From a virus: a stretch of 50,491 bases of DNA. A program made the translations under genes and the position numbers. The number at the start of each line of letters is the position of its first letter. Position 1 is the first letter of the stretch. The stretch is taken from positions 1 to 50,491 of IMG/VR virus record IMGVR_UViG_3300021356_000030. The stretch is one strand, 5' to 3'. Below the pieces are notes generated by a model. That model was given only the letters and a program-made list of their open reading frames with translations. It searched no databases and was not told the DNA's origin. This document shows, piece by piece, positions 1 to 28,688 of the stretch.

Positions 1-1311
1 CCTCTTCAACAAAGGGTTGGGAGTCTTTGGTGCATTAGACATTGAGTTAGCTTTACCAAACCTTTCTGCAGCACCACCTGCTCTTGTTCCACCAGGTTTA
101 CTTCTTAGTTGATCATACTTCCTATTAATCGCTTGCTGTGCTGGAGAAAGGGTAGATCTGGGACCATATGCTCTCTCTTTAGCAGTTGGTGCAGGAGTCG
201 GGGTAGGAGTCGGTTTGGGAGTCGGTGTTGGAGTGGGGGTAGGAGTAGGCTTAACTTTGGGTTCTGGTTTTGGTTGAACTTTAGGTTCTACCTTTGGTTC
301 AACTTTGGTTTCTGGAGTAGGTGTTGTTGTTGGCTTTTCTGGCTTTGTTGTTGTTGTTGGCTTTTCTGGCTTTGTTGTTGTTGGCTTTGCTGGTGCTGTT
401 GTTCCAGTACCATCAGATCTGTTACCAGATCGATCTCTAGATGGAATATGAGGTTGTCTGATTCCACCAGTAGTAGGTTTTCTTTCACCACTTCTCACAG
501 TGGGTTCATTTGATTGTGATGGTGGGGGAGCAAGGAAATCAGTAGCTTTTTTAAATCTACTGCCTGCATTGCGGAGACCCTTGAGCCACTCCTCTCCACT
601 CTTAAGACGAACAAATTCATCAAGATTAGTATCTTCTCTCCAATTATAGAAGACTTCTTCATTATATTTCTTGTCAAACTTCTTCTCTTTCTTCTTGGCC
701 TTCTTAGCAAGTTTGTCTGCTTTCTTTTGTTTTTGGTCTGCTCGAATTTTAGATCCAACCGCAGCAACGGCACTTGCTGTACGTTTGATTGCAGTACCTG
801 CGTTAGAAGCCACTGCACCAACAGTATCGCTAAGACCTGTTCCTTCACCACTAGAAGAAGATGATGTCATACTTCCACTTGTCACGCCGCTTCCGTACTT
901 AGCGGTTTTCGCTTTCTGAGCATCTGCATTAGACTGAGCAGCAGCTGCTTTCTTTTGAACTTTCTTTAATCTTTTAGCGTCTTTGTTTTTCTCCCTCCTG
1001 TCTTGTTCTTTTTGTTGAGCTCTTTGATTTATAAGTTTATCTCTCTTTGCTTTGTCTTCGTCTCTCTTTTTTCTATTGGCTGCAGCATCAGCTAATCTTT
1101 CTTTTTGTCTTGCAGACCTTTCTTTTTCAACTTTTAATTTTCCTTTTGCTTCAACCTTTTTACCTTTCACCAAAGCATCAGAACGGTACTTAGTCGCTTG
1201 ATATCCAACCGACTGTTTTTTCTTCTGTGCTATTTCCTCATCAGAAAGAGGTCTAGCTCTAGATTTCCTCTGAGACCCTGCAGTAGGTTTCTTGGCCTCA
1301 GAGGGTTTTAC
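1..1311 (-). CDS. Minus-one-frame extension of the 554-residue late protein (partial)
   Basis: This reading frame is open from the -1 slip point at 1311 to the window edge, giving 437 codons with no stop. It has no ATG, GTG or TTG near its 5' end, and the frame is closed by a stop about 40 bases upstream of the slip point, so it looks like an extension made by frameshifting at the AAAAAAG heptamer. The product is K/A/E-rich and coiled-coil-like for about 200 residues. A globular-looking part with EEVFYNWRED follows, then a Pro/Thr/Lys tract (TPTPTPTPKPTPTPTPAPTA near 181-240), then a segment containing SPAQQAINRKYDQLR. I do not recognise a family. The Pro/Thr repeat creates spurious plus-strand ORFs. 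An internal start (TTG-GTG near 1176, ATG near 870) is an alternative. Confidence 0.75.
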
Positions 1312-1329
1312 TTTTTTGCGTTTAACTCC
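1267..1329 (-). promoter_or_regulatory. Predicted programmed -1 ribosomal frameshift signal
   Basis: Read on the minus strand the site has four parts. A Shine-Dalgarno-like GGAG lies at 1329-1326. After 8 nt comes the heptamer A_AAA_AAG at 1317-1311, in the correct phase (GCA AAA AAG). The zero-frame stop TAA at 1310-1308 follows at once. After a 6-nt spacer, a stem pairs 1304-1294 with 1277-1267: 11 pairs, one of them G-U, with a 16-nt loop. This matches the order and spacing of the E. coli dnaX signal. The -1 frame opens into at least 437 codons. The alternative is a homopolymer sequencing error (A6 for A7). Confidence 0.8.
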
Positions 1330-3000: not shown

Positions 3001-4212
3001 TTATTTATCAGATTTCTTTTTAGTCATGGTGGCAAGGACTCTAGTCTTATTGTATCTCGCAATCTTTTGACCTGGAGTTAATCCTTGGAGATATTCTCTA
3101 TACTCGTCTGTTGCAATTTCATGAGGTTTATCATTGTGTTCGATCAAATCTCTCAACCAAGACTTGAACATTACATCACTTTCAGTAACTGCAATGACAT
3201 AATTAGTTCCTCTTCTAAGAACCTTTCCTTTTAATCCAGTGTTGATATTTTCTACAATAGTACCGATAGAATAAATTTCTTCCTTGATGTATTGATTTCT
3301 TAGAGTCTCTTCATCAAACTTTGGAGCAATTTCCCAAGTTTCACTAATACCCATACTCTTACGAAGAGTATTGTAGAGTTCCATTTTCTTTTGATTATTA
3401 AGTGTACTTGGGACACCCTTGGCAAAAGATTTGAAATCACCTTCACTCGCTGCAAGTCTAAGTTTTGATGCAGACATACCTTCTGCACCTTCTGCATCAG
3501 GATCTCTATCTCCTGCAGAAACTACTTCTAGATTATCATAGTTATAAAGTTCACCATTATACTTATGACTTAGACCTTGGAACTCACCGAGACGGTCAGC
3601 ACCAACCATGATCTTCATATTCTTATGACCTTCTTCATTTGCTCCAACCATTACATTAAAAATAGTTTTGGAGTTCGCATCATCAACAATATTACCCGCA
3701 TACTTGGGGAACATCTGACGCATATAATCAATCTTAGCAGTTGCGTCTAGAGGATTCTTTTTCTTATCTTGACTTCTCGAAGGATAGATTCTCAGTTCGT
3801 ATCCGTTTTTTTCTGCTTCTTGTGCAGCTTTATTGAGTAACTTTTCGTGTCCGATTGTCGGAGGATTGAACCTACCAAAAACAATAACGACACCATTAGA
3901 CTCTGATTTTTCTTGCGATTCCTCTGCATCTCCAGATTTTTCTGGAGATACTTTTTTCGGTTGAGTCTCGGTGGATACTGATTTCTTAGCATCTGGTTTA
4001 GATGTTGTAGGTTTCTCTACATTGCTGTTCTCTTCTTTTGACTTCTTACCTTGTCCAAAGAACTTTAACTTACCACTAACAGTTTTAGCGACAAGAGTTC
4101 CATCTTTGTCATACCAGTCTCCATGACCATCGCCTTCCAACCCAAGTCTCTTCGCTTGAGCAGACGCAGAAGTTTCTACGGCTTCTTTAAGAAATTGGGA
4201 AAATGATTTCAT
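3001..4212 (-). CDS. Nucleotidyltransferase (HIGH superfamily) with capsid-targeting-like N terminus
   Basis: Residues 1-11 read MKSFSQFLKEA, very close to the T4 internal-protein targeting peptide and including an LKE|A site fitting the gp21 protease rule (L/I-x-E|A/G). A charged linker (about 55-105) leads to a cytidylyl/adenylyl-transferase domain: VVIVFGRFNPPTIGH (about 108-122) carries the TxGH nucleotide-binding motif, and MSASKLR near 245 corresponds to the second (ISSSxxR-like) motif. The C terminus (TGLKGKVLRRGTNYV) looks like a small KOW-like beta domain. A CTAAATA late box lies upstream. The domain resembles NMN adenylyltransferase or glycerol-phosphate cytidylyltransferase; the substrate is unknown. 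Delivery with the virion is an inference. Confidence 0.75.
   Translation of the reverse strand: MKSFSQFLKEAVETSASAQAKRLGLEGDGHGDWYDKDGTLVAKTVSGKLKFFGQGKKSKEENSNVEKPTTSKPDAKKSVSTETQPKKVSPEKSGDAEESQEKSESNGVVIVFGRFNPPTIGHEKLLNKAAQEAEKNGYELRIYPSRSQDKKKNPLDATAKIDYMRQMFPKYAGNIVDDANSKTIFNVMVGANEEGHKNMKIMVGADRLGEFQGLSHKYNGELYNYDNLEVVSAGDRDPDAEGAEGMSASKLRLAASEGDFKSFAKGVPSTLNNQKKMELYNTLRKSMGISETWEIAPKFDEETLRNQYIKEEIYSIGTIVENINTGLKGKVLRRGTNYVIAVTESDVMFKSWLRDLIEHNDKPHEIATDEYREYLQGLTPGQKIARYNKTRVLATMTKKKSDK
3002..3009 (-). promoter_or_regulatory. T4-type late promoter box GATAAATA
   Basis: Minus-strand GATAAATA lies 29 bases upstream of the ATG at 2972 and overlaps the stop of the preceding gene. It differs from the T4 late consensus TATAAATA at the first base. 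Confidence 0.6.
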
Positions 4213-6983: not shown

Positions 6984-8368
6984 CAGAATTTGAATCCTTC
7001 AAATGATTTCCTAGGACCAGAACTCTTTTCTTGAGGAGTATACTCTTCATCCTGACCACTGTCCAGAATATCAGCCTGTGCAGATTGTTCACAATCATAT
7101 AGTCGCATCTTTGCACGATCAATGCCGACTACAAATCTTTTGTTCATCGTCGGATCATTGTATCGATTCTTCAACTGTTTAACCATTATCTGCCCAAGTG
7201 ATTCAAGTTCCTCAGTGCTAATAAGGGCAAACATAAGATCAGCAGTAGCAGGGAGACCAAAGGACTCACTAGTATCAGTAAGCTCAACATCAGAGCTACC
7301 ATAACCAGAGCGAGTGGTCTGCGTGGCAGATACGATAGGGACGTTTGTTTCAACAGCCAACCCTCGAAGCTCCTCTGCAATAGCCTTAATATACGAATAT
7401 GAATTGACAGAAAGATTACCGCGATATCGTGAGGAAGCACATATATTAAGGTAATCAATGAAAATAATATCAGGTCTAAATGACTTCTTAAGTGCAAGCT
7501 CGTTAAGAAGTGACTTAAAGTGTCCACTATGTGCAGTAGCGGTGGGATACTCTTTAATTATAAGAGTACCTTGAGTTTTTTTACTCAAGTTGGTTACTTT
7601 GTTTTCAAACATTGACTTAGGCATGTTTTGAATCTCTTGGATATTGACATTCAAAAGATTAGCGTCAATGCGTTCTGCGATCTTTTCTTCCGCCATCTCA
7701 CAGGTAATGTAGAGAACATTCTTACCTTGTAAGAGACAAGATGCAGCCATGTGACACATGAACAAAGACTTACCAACACCAGTGCCAGCAAGTGCAATAT
7801 TCAATGTCTTGTTAGGGAGACCACCTTTCGTAATCTTATTAAAGAACTCCAGATCGAAAGGAATCTTCTCTTCAGTCTGATGATAGAAATCATATCGTTC
7901 TTGATAGTCCTGAAGATAATCGTGACCTACGTTAGTATCAAAACTAACTGCAAGTGCATCCGATAGAATTGAAGGAATTGCATCCTTAGTTTTCTTATCA
8001 TCATTACCATCAACGATGGAGATAGACTCCATCAGGGCAAGATAAATTGCTTTATCCCTACACCACTTTTCAGTGATGTCACTCAACCAAGTGAAGTCTA
8101 GAACGGTCTTCTCTAGATTATTCACATAGTTAGTGACATCCTTGTAGGAAGTTTCATTGAGATCCGAACGACCATCAACTTCAACACGAAGTACTTCTTG
8201 CGTGGGAAGTTTATTGTACTTGAAGATAAATTTACAGATCTCCTCAAATACTACTTTTTCGGTATAATCTGTAAAATATTCAGACCTGATGAAAGGTAAT
8301 ACCTTTCTAGAGAACTCCTCATTATGAGCGAGACTCCTCAGGATTGTAGTTTCGATACGTTCGTCCAT
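6983..8368 (-). CDS. gp41: Replicative DNA helicase gp41 (DnaB type)
   Basis: A hexameric 5'-3' helicase of the T4 replisome. Walker A is ALAGTGVGKS, Walker B is IIFIDYLNI, and a DnaB-like N-terminal helical domain precedes them. The start is placed at 8368 (MDERIETTILRSL), which matches the gp41 N terminus and overlaps the preceding stop as TGATG; the longer ORF start at 8446 adds 26 unrelated residues. The product of 461 residues is the usual gp41 length. It lies two genes downstream of uvsX. Confidence 0.93.
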   Translation of the reverse strand: MDERIETTILRSLAHNEEFSRKVLPFIRSEYFTDYTEKVVFEEICKFIFKYNKLPTQEVLRVEVDGRSDLNETSYKDVTNYVNNLEKTVLDFTWLSDITEKWCRDKAIYLALMESISIVDGNDDKKTKDAIPSILSDALAVSFDTNVGHDYLQDYQERYDFYHQTEEKIPFDLEFFNKITKGGLPNKTLNIALAGTGVGKSLFMCHMAASCLLQGKNVLYITCEMAEEKIAERIDANLLNVNIQEIQNMPKSMFENKVTNLSKKTQGTLIIKEYPTATAHSGHFKSLLNELALKKSFRPDIIFIDYLNICASSRYRGNLSVNSYSYIKAIAEELRGLAVETNVPIVSATQTTRSGYGSSDVELTDTSESFGLPATADLMFALISTEELESLGQIMVKQLKNRYNDPTMNKRFVVGIDRAKMRLYDCEQSAQADILDSGQDEEYTPQEKSSGPRKSFEGFKF

Positions 8369-8934
8369 CAATAGTAGTGGCAATAGGTTGACATAATATA
8401 CTTGACTCCTTTCTTGACTTTTAATCCTGCATGAGGATATTGCCAAGTTGGGGGAAAGACAATCACCGAGCCAGTCTTCGGTGTAATCTTTCTACTGTGA
8501 TGCGGGAACTCAGTTTCCCCACCACTAAAATCTTCATTCAAATAGAAGAGGAATGCAAGATATCTTCTTGCAGAGGCATGATCCTGCACATCGACGTGTG
8601 GATCGAACCTGTCTTTGGTTCTGGCGTGATATTTCTTTACGCGAAACTCCTCCAAAAAAAGTCTTGAAGGATACCATCTAGTGTACTCTGGTAGTTCTCT
8701 TTTGTAAAGAGACAAAATAGTTTGAGTAACCCGTGACAACTGTGTAATTAGTTGTGGATTACTCTTGTTGATATTCAGTTGAGTAAAGTTTGGAGTTCCT
8801 CCATTCTTTACTATCTCTTTCGCATGACTCTGTTCAAAAAACTGAATCAGAATGTCACACTCTTTTTCACCCAAGGCGTCTTCATACAGTTTGATAAAAT
8901 CACCCGTAACGAAACTCTTGTTTTGCAATTTCAT
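8368..8934 (-). CDS. 2OG-Fe(II) oxygenase (prolyl-4-hydroxylase type)
   Basis: The double-stranded beta-helix motif is visible: DPHVDVQ supplies the HxD iron ligands, FLFYLNEDFSGGETEF the core strands, and YPHAGLKVKKGVKY the distal His plus a basic 2OG-binding residue. The start at 8934 has GGAG 7 nt upstream; an earlier ATG at 8997 would overlap uvsX by about 100 bases. Similar proteins in cyanophages are called phytanoyl or prolyl hydroxylases; the target is unknown. It lies between uvsX and gp41. Confidence 0.82.
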   Translation of the reverse strand: MKLQNKSFVTGDFIKLYEDALGEKECDILIQFFEQSHAKEIVKNGGTPNFTQLNINKSNPQLITQLSRVTQTILSLYKRELPEYTRWYPSRLFLEEFRVKKYHARTKDRFDPHVDVQDHASARRYLAFLFYLNEDFSGGETEFPHHSRKITPKTGSVIVFPPTWQYPHAGLKVKKGVKYIMSTYCHYY

Positions 8935-15462: not shown

Positions 15463-17010
15463 TTATACAGTTGGTGGAGTGAATGTTCTGACCAGTTGCG
15501 GTCGAACTAACGCAATCTTATCCCTGTTAACCAAGGCATCAATAGAGGTTTTGTAAGTATCCGTCATAATCCTGGGGAACAATCCAATTCCAATGATGGG
15601 AACCAAAAGACAACTAATGATGTAGATCTCTCTGGGTTCTGCATCAACAAGGTTTGTGTGATTGACAAGTTCCAAGTTCTCTTTACCAAAGAAGATTTCC
15701 CGCAACATGGACAGGAGATAAATCGGAGTCAGGATCACACCGATCGCAGCAAGAATACAAATGAATGCACGGAAAGGAACAGAATACATCGTATCAGTTG
15801 CAAATCCAGCAAAGACCATCAGTTCACTTGCGAATCCACTCATACCTGGCAGTGCCAAGGATGCCATGGAACACACTACCCACATTGCAAACATGATCTT
15901 CATACTCTTACCAACTCCACCCATTTCAGCGAGTTCAAGAGTATGAGTCCTATCGTAGGTTGCACCCACAAGGAAGAATAGAGAAGCACCGATCAGACCG
16001 TGACTGACCATCTGAAGCATCGCACCACTCGTTCCGAGGGCACTGTAACTACCGATGCCAATGAGAACGAATCCCATGTGACTGATCGAACTGTATGCGA
16101 TCTTCCGTTTGAGATTCCTTTGTGCAAAGGACGTGAGTGCAGCATAGATGATATTAACAACACCAAGGACGATAAGGACTGGAGCGAATACTGAATGTGC
16201 ATCAGGCAAAAGTTGACAGTTGAATCGCAGAAGTGCATATCCACCCATCTTCAACAGAATACCTGCAAGCAACATGTGAACTGGTGCAGTTGCTTCACCG
16301 TGTGCATCGGGTAACCAAGTATGCAAAGGCACGATTGGAAGTTTGACACCAAAGGCAATCAAGAATCCTGCATAACACCAGAGTTGGAAGTTCTTAGGAA
16401 ATCCCTGATTCATAAGGTAAGTGTATTCAAAGTTCGGAGCACCGTTGGATGCCCAAAATCCCATTGCAAGTCCTGCAATAAGAATGAATAGAGAACTACC
16501 TGCGGTGTAAATAATGAACTTAGTCGCGGCATACTGGCGTTTCTTACCACCCCAGATCGCCAACATCAGATAAACAGGAACAAGTTCCAACTCCCATGAT
16601 AAGAAGAATAGAATAAGATCCTGAACTGCAAAGACTGCAATCTGACCACCATCCATCAACAGGAGGAGGAAGTAAAACAGTTTTGGTTTGAATCTAAGAG
16701 GCCACGCAGCAAGTGCTGCAAGACTCGTAATAAAACTCGTCAGAAGGATCAGAGGCATCGATAGACCGTCTGCACCCACAGACCAAGTTAGACCTAGTTG
16801 AGGTAACCAACTAATCCTCTCAGACATCTGTAGACCGCTTACTGAGGGATCATATCCATTCAGATACCCAGCAACGGTAATTAGAAACGTGATCAACGTG
16901 ATTGATAGTCCATACCACCGAACAACTTTCCCGTCTCCTTTATCAGGCAGAAGAGGGATACCAAGTGCGGCAGCAATTGGAAACAATATTGATAAACTCA
17001 ACCAAGGCAT
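15463..17010 (-). CDS. ndhD: NAD(P)H-quinone oxidoreductase (NDH-1) subunit D / chain 4
   Basis: A 515-residue polytopic membrane protein of the NuoM/NdhD antiporter-like family, about the length of cyanobacterial NdhD1. Key residues for proton translocation are intact: E140 in [10 protein letters not shown]223 in FGVKLPI, K254 in LLKMGGY and E396 in GFASELMVF, together with the [12 protein letters not shown] loop. In the host it belongs to the NDH-1 complex of cyclic electron flow and respiration. It is unlike its neighbours: a single gene with terminators on both sides and its own near-consensus promoter, the mark of an acquired moron. The ATG is the first in frame and [11 protein letters not shown] is the normal N terminus. 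An auxiliary metabolic role is inferred. Confidence 0.95.
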
Positions 17011-25636: not shown

Positions 25637-27748
25637 TCAACTGTCTATGAGATCCTTCACCTTACCATACTTCCATCGATTCCAGTAATCATACAGAGTT
25701 ACTTCGATTTCGGGATCAATCAAATAAAGATTGAATAGACATCTCTGTTGGGCGAGTTGGACCTCAGTGTGACCGTATAGAAGATTTGTTGCGTCTGTAG
25801 AAAAGATGTTTGATAGGTTTACAAACTTTCTACCTTTACCTGCGAATATCTTACAGAACTTGTCCGTTTCTTTGTAGAGATCAATCTTCTTGAACTCCAC
25901 ATTGCAAGCTCTGAACCATGTCCAATAATTTATAAAGTTTTGAGATCCACCAAAATAATTGATAGTATCTTTCAGAGATTTGATGAATGAAACATCTTTG
26001 AATATAGTCATGTCATCATGTTGATCACCCTGTTCATCGGGAGGGAGATGAGTTTTGCCAATCCAAGTGAAGTTTTCTTTATATTGGAATGTCTTCATAC
26101 ACTCAAGTAGATTTAGATGTCGTTTGCCCAAATCATCTTGCACAAACCCAGGTGTACTACCCCACTCATATAAGTGTCTATACCAAGCGAGACTTCGTTG
26201 ATTAAAATCATAAACAACAATTTTGGATTTTGGATTAAGTTTCTCTTGTCTAAAGAGATCAAAAATCTTAAATCCACTTGCAGTATTTACAGCAAGATCA
26301 AAAGTACCTTCATTTGATATACGCATATCCTCACTATTAAACAACCAAATCTGATCCTTTACAGATAAAGCGTCTTCAATAGATTTCTTTTGATTCCAGT
26401 TCTGACTATCGTAAGTAGTCATAGTTTTCAATGACTGTTCATATCGAGCAGTCTCATGTTCTGGATAATGGTAAAACTTATTATGTCTTAGGGTTTCATT
26501 CAACATAACAACGGACCAACCACCTTCAAACATTGCTTTGAGAAGTTCCCACCCCTGGCCAGCAAATGGTTGTTTGGTTCTCTTCTTATCTTTATTAACT
26601 CTTACCCATAGAGGAGTATAGTCATGATGGAAGTTCTCTTCACTCCTTTCCAAAACAGGCAGAAGTTCTTCAGACTCACCCTGCCATGTACCAAAGTCAG
26701 GTCTATCAACTTCCTTCCATGCATGAAGATTGACAATAAAGAACTGATGATGAAGTTCTGCCCAATGATCTGGTTTCATTAGACAATGACCAGCAACACC
26801 AAAGTCCTTATCCTTCATGATAAAGTTTCGGATCTCTCTATCATATTCAAAACTTTTGAGAATAGTTCCTGCAGCAAGAACGACACAATAATCATACCCA
26901 GCATCTGCGGTTGTCTCTAGGAGTTCTTTGATAGAGTCTCCAAAGAAAATATCAGATTGTTTGTGTGCTCTCTTGAGGTAGAACAATGAAGAACCTTTGA
27001 ATCGAAGATACATTGCAGTATTCTCAATTCTATCAAGTTGATTGTAGATCCCATAACAGATCTTTCTATCCTTGTCTTCCAGCCTCATCTGAAGTTGTTT
27101 ATATGCACCCTCAACCAACTTAGGGTTTACATCCCCGTGGACTATGAAATGATACCTGGGTTTATTACTGTTGTTATAAACGGCATGAGTGTTTCCAATG
27201 TCCAAAAACATTCCTCTGCCTTGTTTGAATGGAACTTCCCCATGATCTTTGAAGTAGAAACCACATCCCTGTGGATTATTGATTGCAATGTTTAGAGGTC
27301 CAAAGATTCTACCTTCCCCATCATCATGAGGCATGATGTGACCACCAGGTTCGATTTTCATGATCCGAACTCGATCAAATCTGCGATACCCAAGTTTCTT
27401 CAAGAATTTTACACATGCAGGAAATTTTTCACATGCACTCGTCCATCGGTATTGATTTGGAGTTCCACCATACTGATCATAATTTTCAGTAGCATCTGGA
27501 CGTAGACCATGTAAGGTCAACCCCTTCCATCCCTCATGAGAGTAACTGAGGTGTTTGTCTTTTTCTCTATGCCCGACAAACATGTCATCATTCTGGACAC
27601 ACTCGCGATACATTTCCGCAAAATTGTCCTTAAAGTCTATGCTTAGATAAGGCCAATCCGAATCCCAAATATCTTCAGGTAAAGGTAATGTAGGTTCCCA
27701 CTCATTAGATTTAGATGTGGAAATAAATTTTTCAAGAATCTGATTCAT
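25637..27748 (-). CDS. Large multidomain protein with N-terminal Asp/Asn-hydroxylase-type 2OG domain
   Basis: Residues about 45-215 carry a 2OG-Fe(II) beta-helix with MPHDDGEGR as HxD and IGNTHAVYNN plus RYHFIVHGD supplying the distal His and Arg, like aspartyl/asparaginyl hydroxylases. A middle region (about 235-430) with FGDSIKELL and YCVVLAAGTILKSF resembles GT-A-type transferases. A C-terminal region (about 470-700), with SKIVVYDFNQRSLAWYRHL, looks Rossmann-like. The ATG at 27748 is preferred to a TTG at 27766. It overlaps the upstream gene. The domain names beyond the first are inference. Confidence 0.72.
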   Translation of the reverse strand: MNQILEKFISTSKSNEWEPTLPLPEDIWDSDWPYLSIDFKDNFAEMYRECVQNDDMFVGHREKDKHLSYSHEGWKGLTLHGLRPDATENYDQYGGTPNQYRWTSACEKFPACVKFLKKLGYRRFDRVRIMKIEPGGHIMPHDDGEGRIFGPLNIAINNPQGCGFYFKDHGEVPFKQGRGMFLDIGNTHAVYNNSNKPRYHFIVHGDVNPKLVEGAYKQLQMRLEDKDRKICYGIYNQLDRIENTAMYLRFKGSSLFYLKRAHKQSDIFFGDSIKELLETTADAGYDYCVVLAAGTILKSFEYDREIRNFIMKDKDFGVAGHCLMKPDHWAELHHQFFIVNLHAWKEVDRPDFGTWQGESEELLPVLERSEENFHHDYTPLWVRVNKDKKRTKQPFAGQGWELLKAMFEGGWSVVMLNETLRHNKFYHYPEHETARYEQSLKTMTTYDSQNWNQKKSIEDALSVKDQIWLFNSEDMRISNEGTFDLAVNTASGFKIFDLFRQEKLNPKSKIVVYDFNQRSLAWYRHLYEWGSTPGFVQDDLGKRHLNLLECMKTFQYKENFTWIGKTHLPPDEQGDQHDDMTIFKDVSFIKSLKDTINYFGGSQNFINYWTWFRACNVEFKKIDLYKETDKFCKIFAGKGRKFVNLSNIFSTDATNLLYGHTEVQLAQQRCLFNLYLIDPEIEVTLYDYWNRWKYGKVKDLIDS

Positions 27749-28688
27749 CTCTAATTTCAATACCAATAAACTCTTCTATCTTAGAAAAAACTTCAATGTT
27801 CCAACGTTTTTGTAATTCTGGATCATGTCTCCATGCATTCAAGTCGGGATTAAATCTTGTAAAGGTTTCATCAATAATGACTCTACCAAGGTGATACCTA
27901 CCAAGAGCAAGTTTATCCCTATCGTGAATAGGAATCATTACCCTAGTTTCTTCATCTTGTTTCAAATACCACTGATAAAAATCTTGTTCCATACTCTTAT
28001 ACATGTATGGTGTTTGAGAGAAATTTAACCAACACTCAGTGCTGTACAAGGTTTGAATTTTTACTTGATCATTCTGAATTACACGAACATCATCGTCACA
28101 CATCGCATGAGAGTAATCTTTACCTAAAGTATTATATCCAAGATATAAAGATCCCCAAGCAAATTCACTATCTAAGAATAATTTATCTCCTTCATCAAGT
28201 GGTTCGCCTGGATATGGAGGATATATTGAACAGAGACAACTATAACATGGAAACATATCAGGAGATGTCTTCATAGCAATCTCAGTAATATGAATCCACT
28301 CATTTAAACTCAACCAAGTATCGTGAGCCTCTTCACTAAGAAACCTTTCTGGATCTAAAGACTCTTCTCCATACTCTTCAAACATCTCATGGAGATAATT
28401 CAGTTTGTCCTGATCGATCTCACTAGGATCTCCCTCCAAAAAAGGAAGTCGATCAGTTTCATACAGTTTATTGATATGAGAAACAATACTGTTTAGTTTG
28501 TTTTTTAAGTATGGAAGATCTTCAACATTCTTATTGGTAATCTTAAGATTCAGATATGCATCTTCTTCCTGTTCTTTGATTCGGATTTGTTCAATCCATT
28601 TTTCCCTAAGACTATTTGGTTGCAAGTCAAAGGTGATTGGAAGGATTTTACCACCCTCCATCCTGAAATAGAATACTGCAAATTTCAT
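27732..28688 (-). CDS. Conserved-type hypothetical protein (318 aa)
   Basis: An acidic, Trp/Tyr-rich soluble protein with no motif I recognise. Segments include PCYSCLCSIYPPYPGEPLDE with a three-Cys cluster and GRYHLGRVIIDETFTRFNPD near the C terminus. It is transcribed just before and overlaps the multidomain hydroxylase, suggesting a joint task. Confidence 0.7.
   Translation of the reverse strand: MKFAVFYFRMEGGKILPITFDLQPNSLREKWIEQIRIKEQEEDAYLNLKITNKNVEDLPYLKNKLNSIVSHINKLYETDRLPFLEGDPSEIDQDKLNYLHEMFEEYGEESLDPERFLSEEAHDTWLSLNEWIHITEIAMKTSPDMFPCYSCLCSIYPPYPGEPLDEGDKLFLDSEFAWGSLYLGYNTLGKDYSHAMCDDDVRVIQNDQVKIQTLYSTECWLNFSQTPYMYKSMEQDFYQWYLKQDEETRVMIPIHDRDKLALGRYHLGRVIIDETFTRFNPDLNAWRHDPELQKRWNIEVFSKIEEFIGIEIRDESDS

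Follow-up and report, generated by a model that had tools for sequence, protein, structure and literature searches.

A conserved candidate -1 frameshift signal at the end of a mosaic gene in T4-like cyanophages

Conserved -1 frameshifting very probably gives rise to two forms, a short one and a long one bearing DUF6321, of a mosaic protein that is probably virion-associated. The gene lies on the minus strand of a 50,491-nucleotide stretch of DNA from a marine cyanobacterial virus (the complete IMG/VR record IMGVR_UViG_3300021356_000030; hereafter, the window), for which the first-pass annotation had proposed a programmed -1 frameshift yielding a 554-residue product plus a longer fusion. That proposal remains the best explanation and now has comparative backing in the form of a conserved signal and a selected -1 frame. 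That shifting occurs, and with what efficiency, is what we infer from sequence. Programmed -1 frameshifting is itself of a known kind; the gene family for which it is proposed here is a new one for it. In related viruses the same modules are found in a single ORF, in ORFs that overlap stop on start, or in frameshift-linked ORFs, and these three arrangements make it directly testable why a virus would meter two forms of a particle protein. Additionally, long products of this kind escape standard annotation as well as standard virion proteomic searches.

The signal at the end of ORF1

The elements of the putative signal, the two reading frames that it would link, and the upstream neighbour are as follows.

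3001-4212, minus strand: upstream neighbour, a cytidylyltransferase/NMNAT-like gene
2972-1308, minus strand: ORF1, zero-frame product of 554 aa, with a GKHGQ module and with DUF3008 near the C-terminus
1329-1326, minus strand: GGAG, putative Shine-Dalgarno-like stimulator, 8 nt before the heptamer
1325-1318, minus strand: 8-nt spacer between GGAG and the heptamer
1317-1311, minus strand: slippery heptamer A_AAA_AAG, in phase with ORF1
1310-1308, minus strand: zero-frame stop codon TAA, immediately 3' of the heptamer
1310-1305, minus strand: 6-nt spacer UAAAAC between heptamer and stem, including the stop codon
1304-1294, minus strand: putative stimulatory stem, 5' arm CCUCUGAGGCC
1277-1267, minus strand: putative stimulatory stem, 3' arm GGUCUCAGAGG
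1-1313, minus strand: ORF2, the -1 extension of 437 codons, which runs off the contig end; the first shifted codon is GTA at 1311-1313

The 3' end of ORF1 reads GCGGAGTTAAACGC AAAAAAG TAA AAC and is followed by a stem of 11 pairs, one of which is G-U. The heptamer has the X_XXY_YYZ form of a -1 frameshift signal and lies in the phase of the zero frame. All of the elements first described here, from GGAG through the 8 nt, A_AAA_AAG, TAA and the 6 nt to the 11-pair stem, were found again at the positions and distances assigned to them.

A search of IMG/VR with ORF1 as query recovered four sister contigs that span the junction (L002, L004, L005, and L006). All four keep A_AAA_AAG directly followed by TAA, together with the stem, and in all of them 8 nt separate the heptamer from an upstream purine block, which is GGAG in three of them and GGGG, with G-U pairing possible, in L006. 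Shine-Dalgarno-like elements are expected roughly 7-14 nt upstream, and GGAG stands at 8 nt in four contigs. The expectation that an alignment of homologues would preserve heptamer, spacing, and stem was thus borne out in the four sisters, with three compensatory pairs in L006. It had also been recognized that reads with seven A residues would undo the claim; six A, G, and the stop codon were found in five of five contigs, which come from different metagenome records. It should be noted that the cassette group consists of these five contigs only, that four of them are close to each other at the junction, and that the compensatory changes come from L006 alone.

When the final 130 codons of the five ORF1 3' ends were compared codon by codon, the last nine showed no synonymous difference in 78 comparisons, versus 119 in 874 over most of the remainder, and none of the 93 other nine-codon stretches examined was free of synonymous differences. 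The stem, which lies in ORF2 only, was compared with 2000 recodings per contig that keep the ORF2 peptide. The 48 nt downstream in the window fold at -19.9 kcal/mol versus -6.5 +/- 2.9 kcal/mol for the synonymous recodings, and the number of recodings (per 2000) that fold as well was 0 for the window, 1 for L002, 0 for L004, 0 for L005, and 30 for L006. A stable structure about 5-9 nt downstream of the heptamer is therefore present beyond what chance and coding constraint would give. Relative to L002, the stem of L006 carries one U-A to C-G change and two inner C-G to G-C changes and has lost one outer pair, so that three pairs are kept by compensatory change among few independent sequences. 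In the window, 6 nt have been inserted into the 5' arm, and the stem has been rebuilt with 11 pairs to the 3' arm.

The -1 frame and its modules in related viruses

The -1 frame of the window is open from 1359, just after the last upstream stop, to base 1. In line with the first description of a frame of at least 437 codons with no nearby start, 437 codons follow the shift and the earliest candidate starts are a TTG at codon 47 and a GTG at codon 48, neither preceded by a Shine-Dalgarno-like sequence; no ATG occurs until codon 148. Because the window is the complete record, ORF2 is truncated where the contig stops. In the sisters, the -1 ORFs comprise 334-360 codons and each ends in DUF6321 (PF19846), the sole copy of this domain found in the respective record, and DUF3008 (PF11450) is present in ORF1 of all five contigs. 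For the DUF6321 region, AlphaFold gave a low-confidence model (pLDDT 62). The first part of the PHROG profile phrog_10538 matches DUF3008 and the remainder matches DUF6321, indicating that these two domains co-occur in one protein elsewhere.

No start codon is common to the ORF2 of all five contigs, and none has ATG, GTG, or TTG near the stop. A GTG is present at codons 46-48 in four of the five, without a Shine-Dalgarno-like sequence, and the first ATG, GTG, or TTG of L006 is codon 120. ORF2 dN/dS ranges from 0.29 to 0.61 across pairs (dS 0.26-1.3), and over the 44 codons from the shift to the GTG dN is lower than dS in six of six pairs tested. The -1 ORF is therefore conserved as protein without a conserved start of its own. 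These ratios, the constraint on the 44 codons, and the start-free stretch of L006 speak against both internal initiation and the decay of a broken gene.

The second of two ORFs in the phage Sf-FS3 (Sf-FS3_168) is collinear with window ORF2, including a Pro/Thr region, and then continues to DUF6321. Given this collinearity and the DUF6321 endings of four of four sisters, the complete window fusion would probably comprise about 1,160 residues, i.e., about 170 residues past the contig end. The comparison thus supports a 554-residue product and a fusion of more than 990 residues, as first suggested, but the Pro/Thr tail is probably not where the fusion ends. At window positions 1-640 (minus strand), following EEVFYNWRE, ORF2 departs from the DUF6321 ending of the sisters into the Pro/Thr-rich region that it has in common with Sf-FS3_168, which appears to be a domain swap inside the -1 frame.

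The closest isolate by DNA polymerase (92.7% identical), S-SCSM2R, encodes at the same locus, directly after an NMNAT/cytidylyltransferase gene, one unbroken 815-aa ORF (S-SCSM2R_176). Its order of DUF3008 near the N-terminus (score 22.5, slightly below the Pfam cut-off of 24), WR-E/EVE/GKN module, and C-terminal DUF6321 is collinear with the window family. Homology on the ORF1 side extends nearly to the shift site, and the coil that follows the junction (first 110 residues, L006 ORF2) is not significantly similar to S-SCSM2R_176 when judged against shuffles; continuity across the junction is therefore argued from domain order. S-SCSM2R_176 shares locus and DUF3008-to-DUF6321 architecture with the window gene but, being uninterrupted, would make the long form only. 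In addition to this long fused gene (L189, 1466-3913), S-SCSM2R has a match to the GKHGQ module at another locus (SSCSM2R_205; L108, 4750-6342), which indicates that modules of this gene family move between genes. In a further IMG/VR contig (L160, 2927-5077), reading of the sequence likewise placed DUF3008, the GKHGQ module, and a C-terminus resembling DUF6321 in a single ORF of 716 aa, which is a relative of the frameshift fusion without a break.

Sf-FS3 encodes the two parts as separate ORFs linked through TGATG, in which the start lies on the stop codon, and S-SM2 likewise has TGATG. That homologues might be encoded by separate genes with an intervening start codon had been named as a finding that would count against frameshifting, and those of Sf-FS3 do point that way; on the other side, the five cassette contigs share no start and S-SCSM2R has one continuous ORF. 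For these two reasons, the separate genes of Sf-FS3 are another way to express the same modules and no refutation of frameshifting. The GKHGQ module of S-SM2 gp186 (T4-GC_1222) is 88% identical to that of the window, and this gene, too, is positioned after a cytidylyltransferase gene, as are ORF92 and ORF93 of S-SCSM1. By its shared modules and its place after the cytidylyltransferase gene, the window gene belongs to the gp186-type family. Unlike the window, S-SM2 and S-SCSM1 have no frameshift cassette, and their modules are spread over separate genes.

In isolates, homologues of the upstream neighbour (3001-4212) stand ahead of the gene that corresponds to the window gene, and they also occur in virions. 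For S-SCSM1, mass spectrometry of particles purified on CsCl is reported to have identified 45 proteins, ORF91 named among them (PMC9602691); the NMNAT-like ORF91, ORF92, and ORF93 (a free-standing DUF3008) carry the annotation of virion proteins in this phage. Cytidylyltransferases have repeatedly been found in cyanophage virions (PMC10665884). On this basis, the short and long forms of the ORF1 product would be virion-associated and probably inside the capsid. The other window neighbours include MazG and a DnaB-like helicase. The gene had been called a late gene, and here the evidence divides: its location among replication and nucleotide genes speaks against that description, and the virion protein encoded by its positional homologue speaks indirectly for it. 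In S-SKS1, the cytidylyltransferase homologue was matched in two pieces with no annotated gene (L192, about 7510-8735; HQ633071.1, 72009-73234), which suggests a frame break or an annotation gap.

Mechanism, alternatives, and known frameshift systems

Under the proposed mechanism, ribosomes reading ORF1 would arrive at GCA AAA AAG UAA, where they would be assisted by the upstream purine-rich block, able to bind the anti-Shine-Dalgarno sequence, and delayed by the stem, which begins 6-8 nt further downstream. A fraction would re-pair tRNA-Lys from A_AAA_AAG to AAA_AAA_G and go on in the -1 frame. Two proteins with a common N-terminus would result, of which the short form would stop after DUF3008 and the long form would add a basic coil and, in the relatives, the C-terminal DUF6321 domain. 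The frameshift would thereby fix the proportion of protein that carries the basic DUF6321 tail.

Three other explanations bear on the same junction. ORF2 could be a separate protein whose translation begins at a start codon within the -1 frame, or through re-initiation once ribosomes have passed the ORF1 stop; the heptamer would then be incidental. The use of TGATG for separate proteins in Sf-FS3 and S-SM2 and the GTG located 46-48 codons into ORF2 in four contigs would suit this explanation, which we nevertheless regard as quite improbable: five contigs have no possible start near the stop, one of them has none before codon 120, the GTG has no Shine-Dalgarno-like sequence before it, the codons that precede it are under purifying selection, and both the synonymous freeze and the stem would be left unexplained. 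Transcriptional slippage, in which RNA polymerase adds or drops an A on the A run such that part of the mRNA encodes the fusion, would draw on the homopolymer of six A at the junction. However, six A and then a G make a short run for such slippage, and the purine block and the stem, neither of which it needs, are both conserved, making this explanation less probable again.

The smallest probability of all is given to a single gene split by a sequencing or assembly error or by a recent frameshift mutation, even though the closest isolate has a continuous ORF here and the junction contains six consecutive A. In five contigs from different metagenome records these six A recur, together with the G and the stop, despite the ORF2 dS of up to 1.3 (from 0.26), the isolate genome S-BM3 has a junction of the same kind (see below), and neither a stem nor frozen codons would be expected from an error. 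Programmed -1 frameshifting thus remains the preferred reading.

The signal had been likened to that of Escherichia coli dnaX, and in layout the likeness holds. The dnaX element, fetched as a yardstick, consists of AGGGAG, 10 nt, A_AAA_AAG, and a stem 5-6 nt downstream; the window has the same heptamer, a purine block at 8 rather than 10 nt, and a stem at 6 nt. The outcome is opposite. The shift in E. coli dnaX yields a shorter product, whereas the window shift would lengthen the product; moreover, the window gene and stem are unrelated to those of dnaX and the zero-frame stop comes right after the heptamer. The window signal is therefore not a dnaX element proper.

IS3-type elements and lambda G-GT make a short zero-frame product and a longer -1 fusion. 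Like these systems, frameshifts of the IS3-family transposase and lambda G-GT type (reviewed in PMC5009743), the window has its signal where the first ORF terminates and a -1 product that would be the longer fusion. Unlike them, its gene is neither a transposase nor a tail assembly chaperone and is neighbored by cytidylyltransferase and replication genes. Annotated phage frameshifts are mostly those of tail assembly chaperones (PMC10885494). A G/GT pair is defined as a chaperone-type gene pair placed before the tape measure gene; a lambda-type tail chaperone was considered for the window gene and rejected, the neighbors being a cytidylyltransferase, MazG, and a DnaB-like helicase and no tail-chaperone profile matching it. 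Frameshifts in virion proteins are known for T7 gene 10A/10B and for capsid and tail proteins of Lactobacillus phage A2 (cited in PMC5009743). These resemble what is proposed for the window in that a particle protein is also made in a longer, minor form, but they concern major capsid or tail proteins and not a lysine-rich T4-like cyanophage mosaic family with DUF3008 and DUF6321. In the literature searched, no frameshift was reported for cyanophages and DUF6321 was not named.

Distribution and a second cassette

A survey covered 1,207 ends of ORFs of at least 150 codons in the fetched loci, counted redundantly, for a heptamer no more than 10 codons from the stop, a -1 extension of at least 100 codons, and no start in the first 12 codons. 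Only the window group and a second group, that of the isolate S-BM3, had this combination, both in one gene family, and no further cassette was found at the 61 gp186-like ORF ends surveyed in 80 other loci. From these counts, the frameshift cassette is a lineage-specific device and not general to the gp186-like family. As an IMG/VR query, ORF2, whose query peptides are variable, returned no relatives, while an alignment of the fused junction returned the same four sister contigs from IMG/VR and no match among GTDB genomes. A generic DNA pattern combining the heptamer, a stop codon, and a CTGAG...CTCAG stem matched 45 stretches, comprising the four sisters, unrelated matches, and a weak match in L042, where the zero frame has just 62 codons. 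No Rfam family matched the window at gathering score. Elsewhere in the window, the long ORFs at 15463-17010 and 25637-27766 (both minus strand; 515 and 709 aa) had no PHROG match at E 1e-5.

The second cassette was observed at the end of a gp186-like gene in S-BM3 (OQ319121.1; L022, 5036-5120) and in two further loci (L078 and L079, both 3060-3140). In all three the gene ends in AAGGAG, 8 nt, A_AAA_AAG, and TAG. The -1 frame continues without a stop for 258-297 codons, and downstream lie two hairpins that differ from the stem of the window; synonymous recodings folded as well in only 0-1 of 2000. The C-terminal part of this -1 ORF has 70% identity to the C-terminus of S-SCSM1 ORF92, a virion protein encoded by a single ORF. 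In this group an in-frame ATG, which has no well-placed Shine-Dalgarno sequence, lies 13 codons past the shift and offers an alternative to frameshifting. The cassette of the S-BM3 group may be independent of that of the window or may share its heptamer core.

Tentatively, and with somewhat less than even confidence, it could be proposed that one and the same capsid-associated mosaic gene, whose modules elsewhere form one ORF or overlapping ORFs, has gained such a terminal cassette at least twice in T4-like cyanophages, the window and S-BM3 groups having different stems and -1 extensions; selection would therefore act on the short-to-long ratio of a packaged, possibly injected protein. In S-BM3, the annotated next gene, SBM3_00119, lies in the -1 frame and may itself be the frameshift extension.
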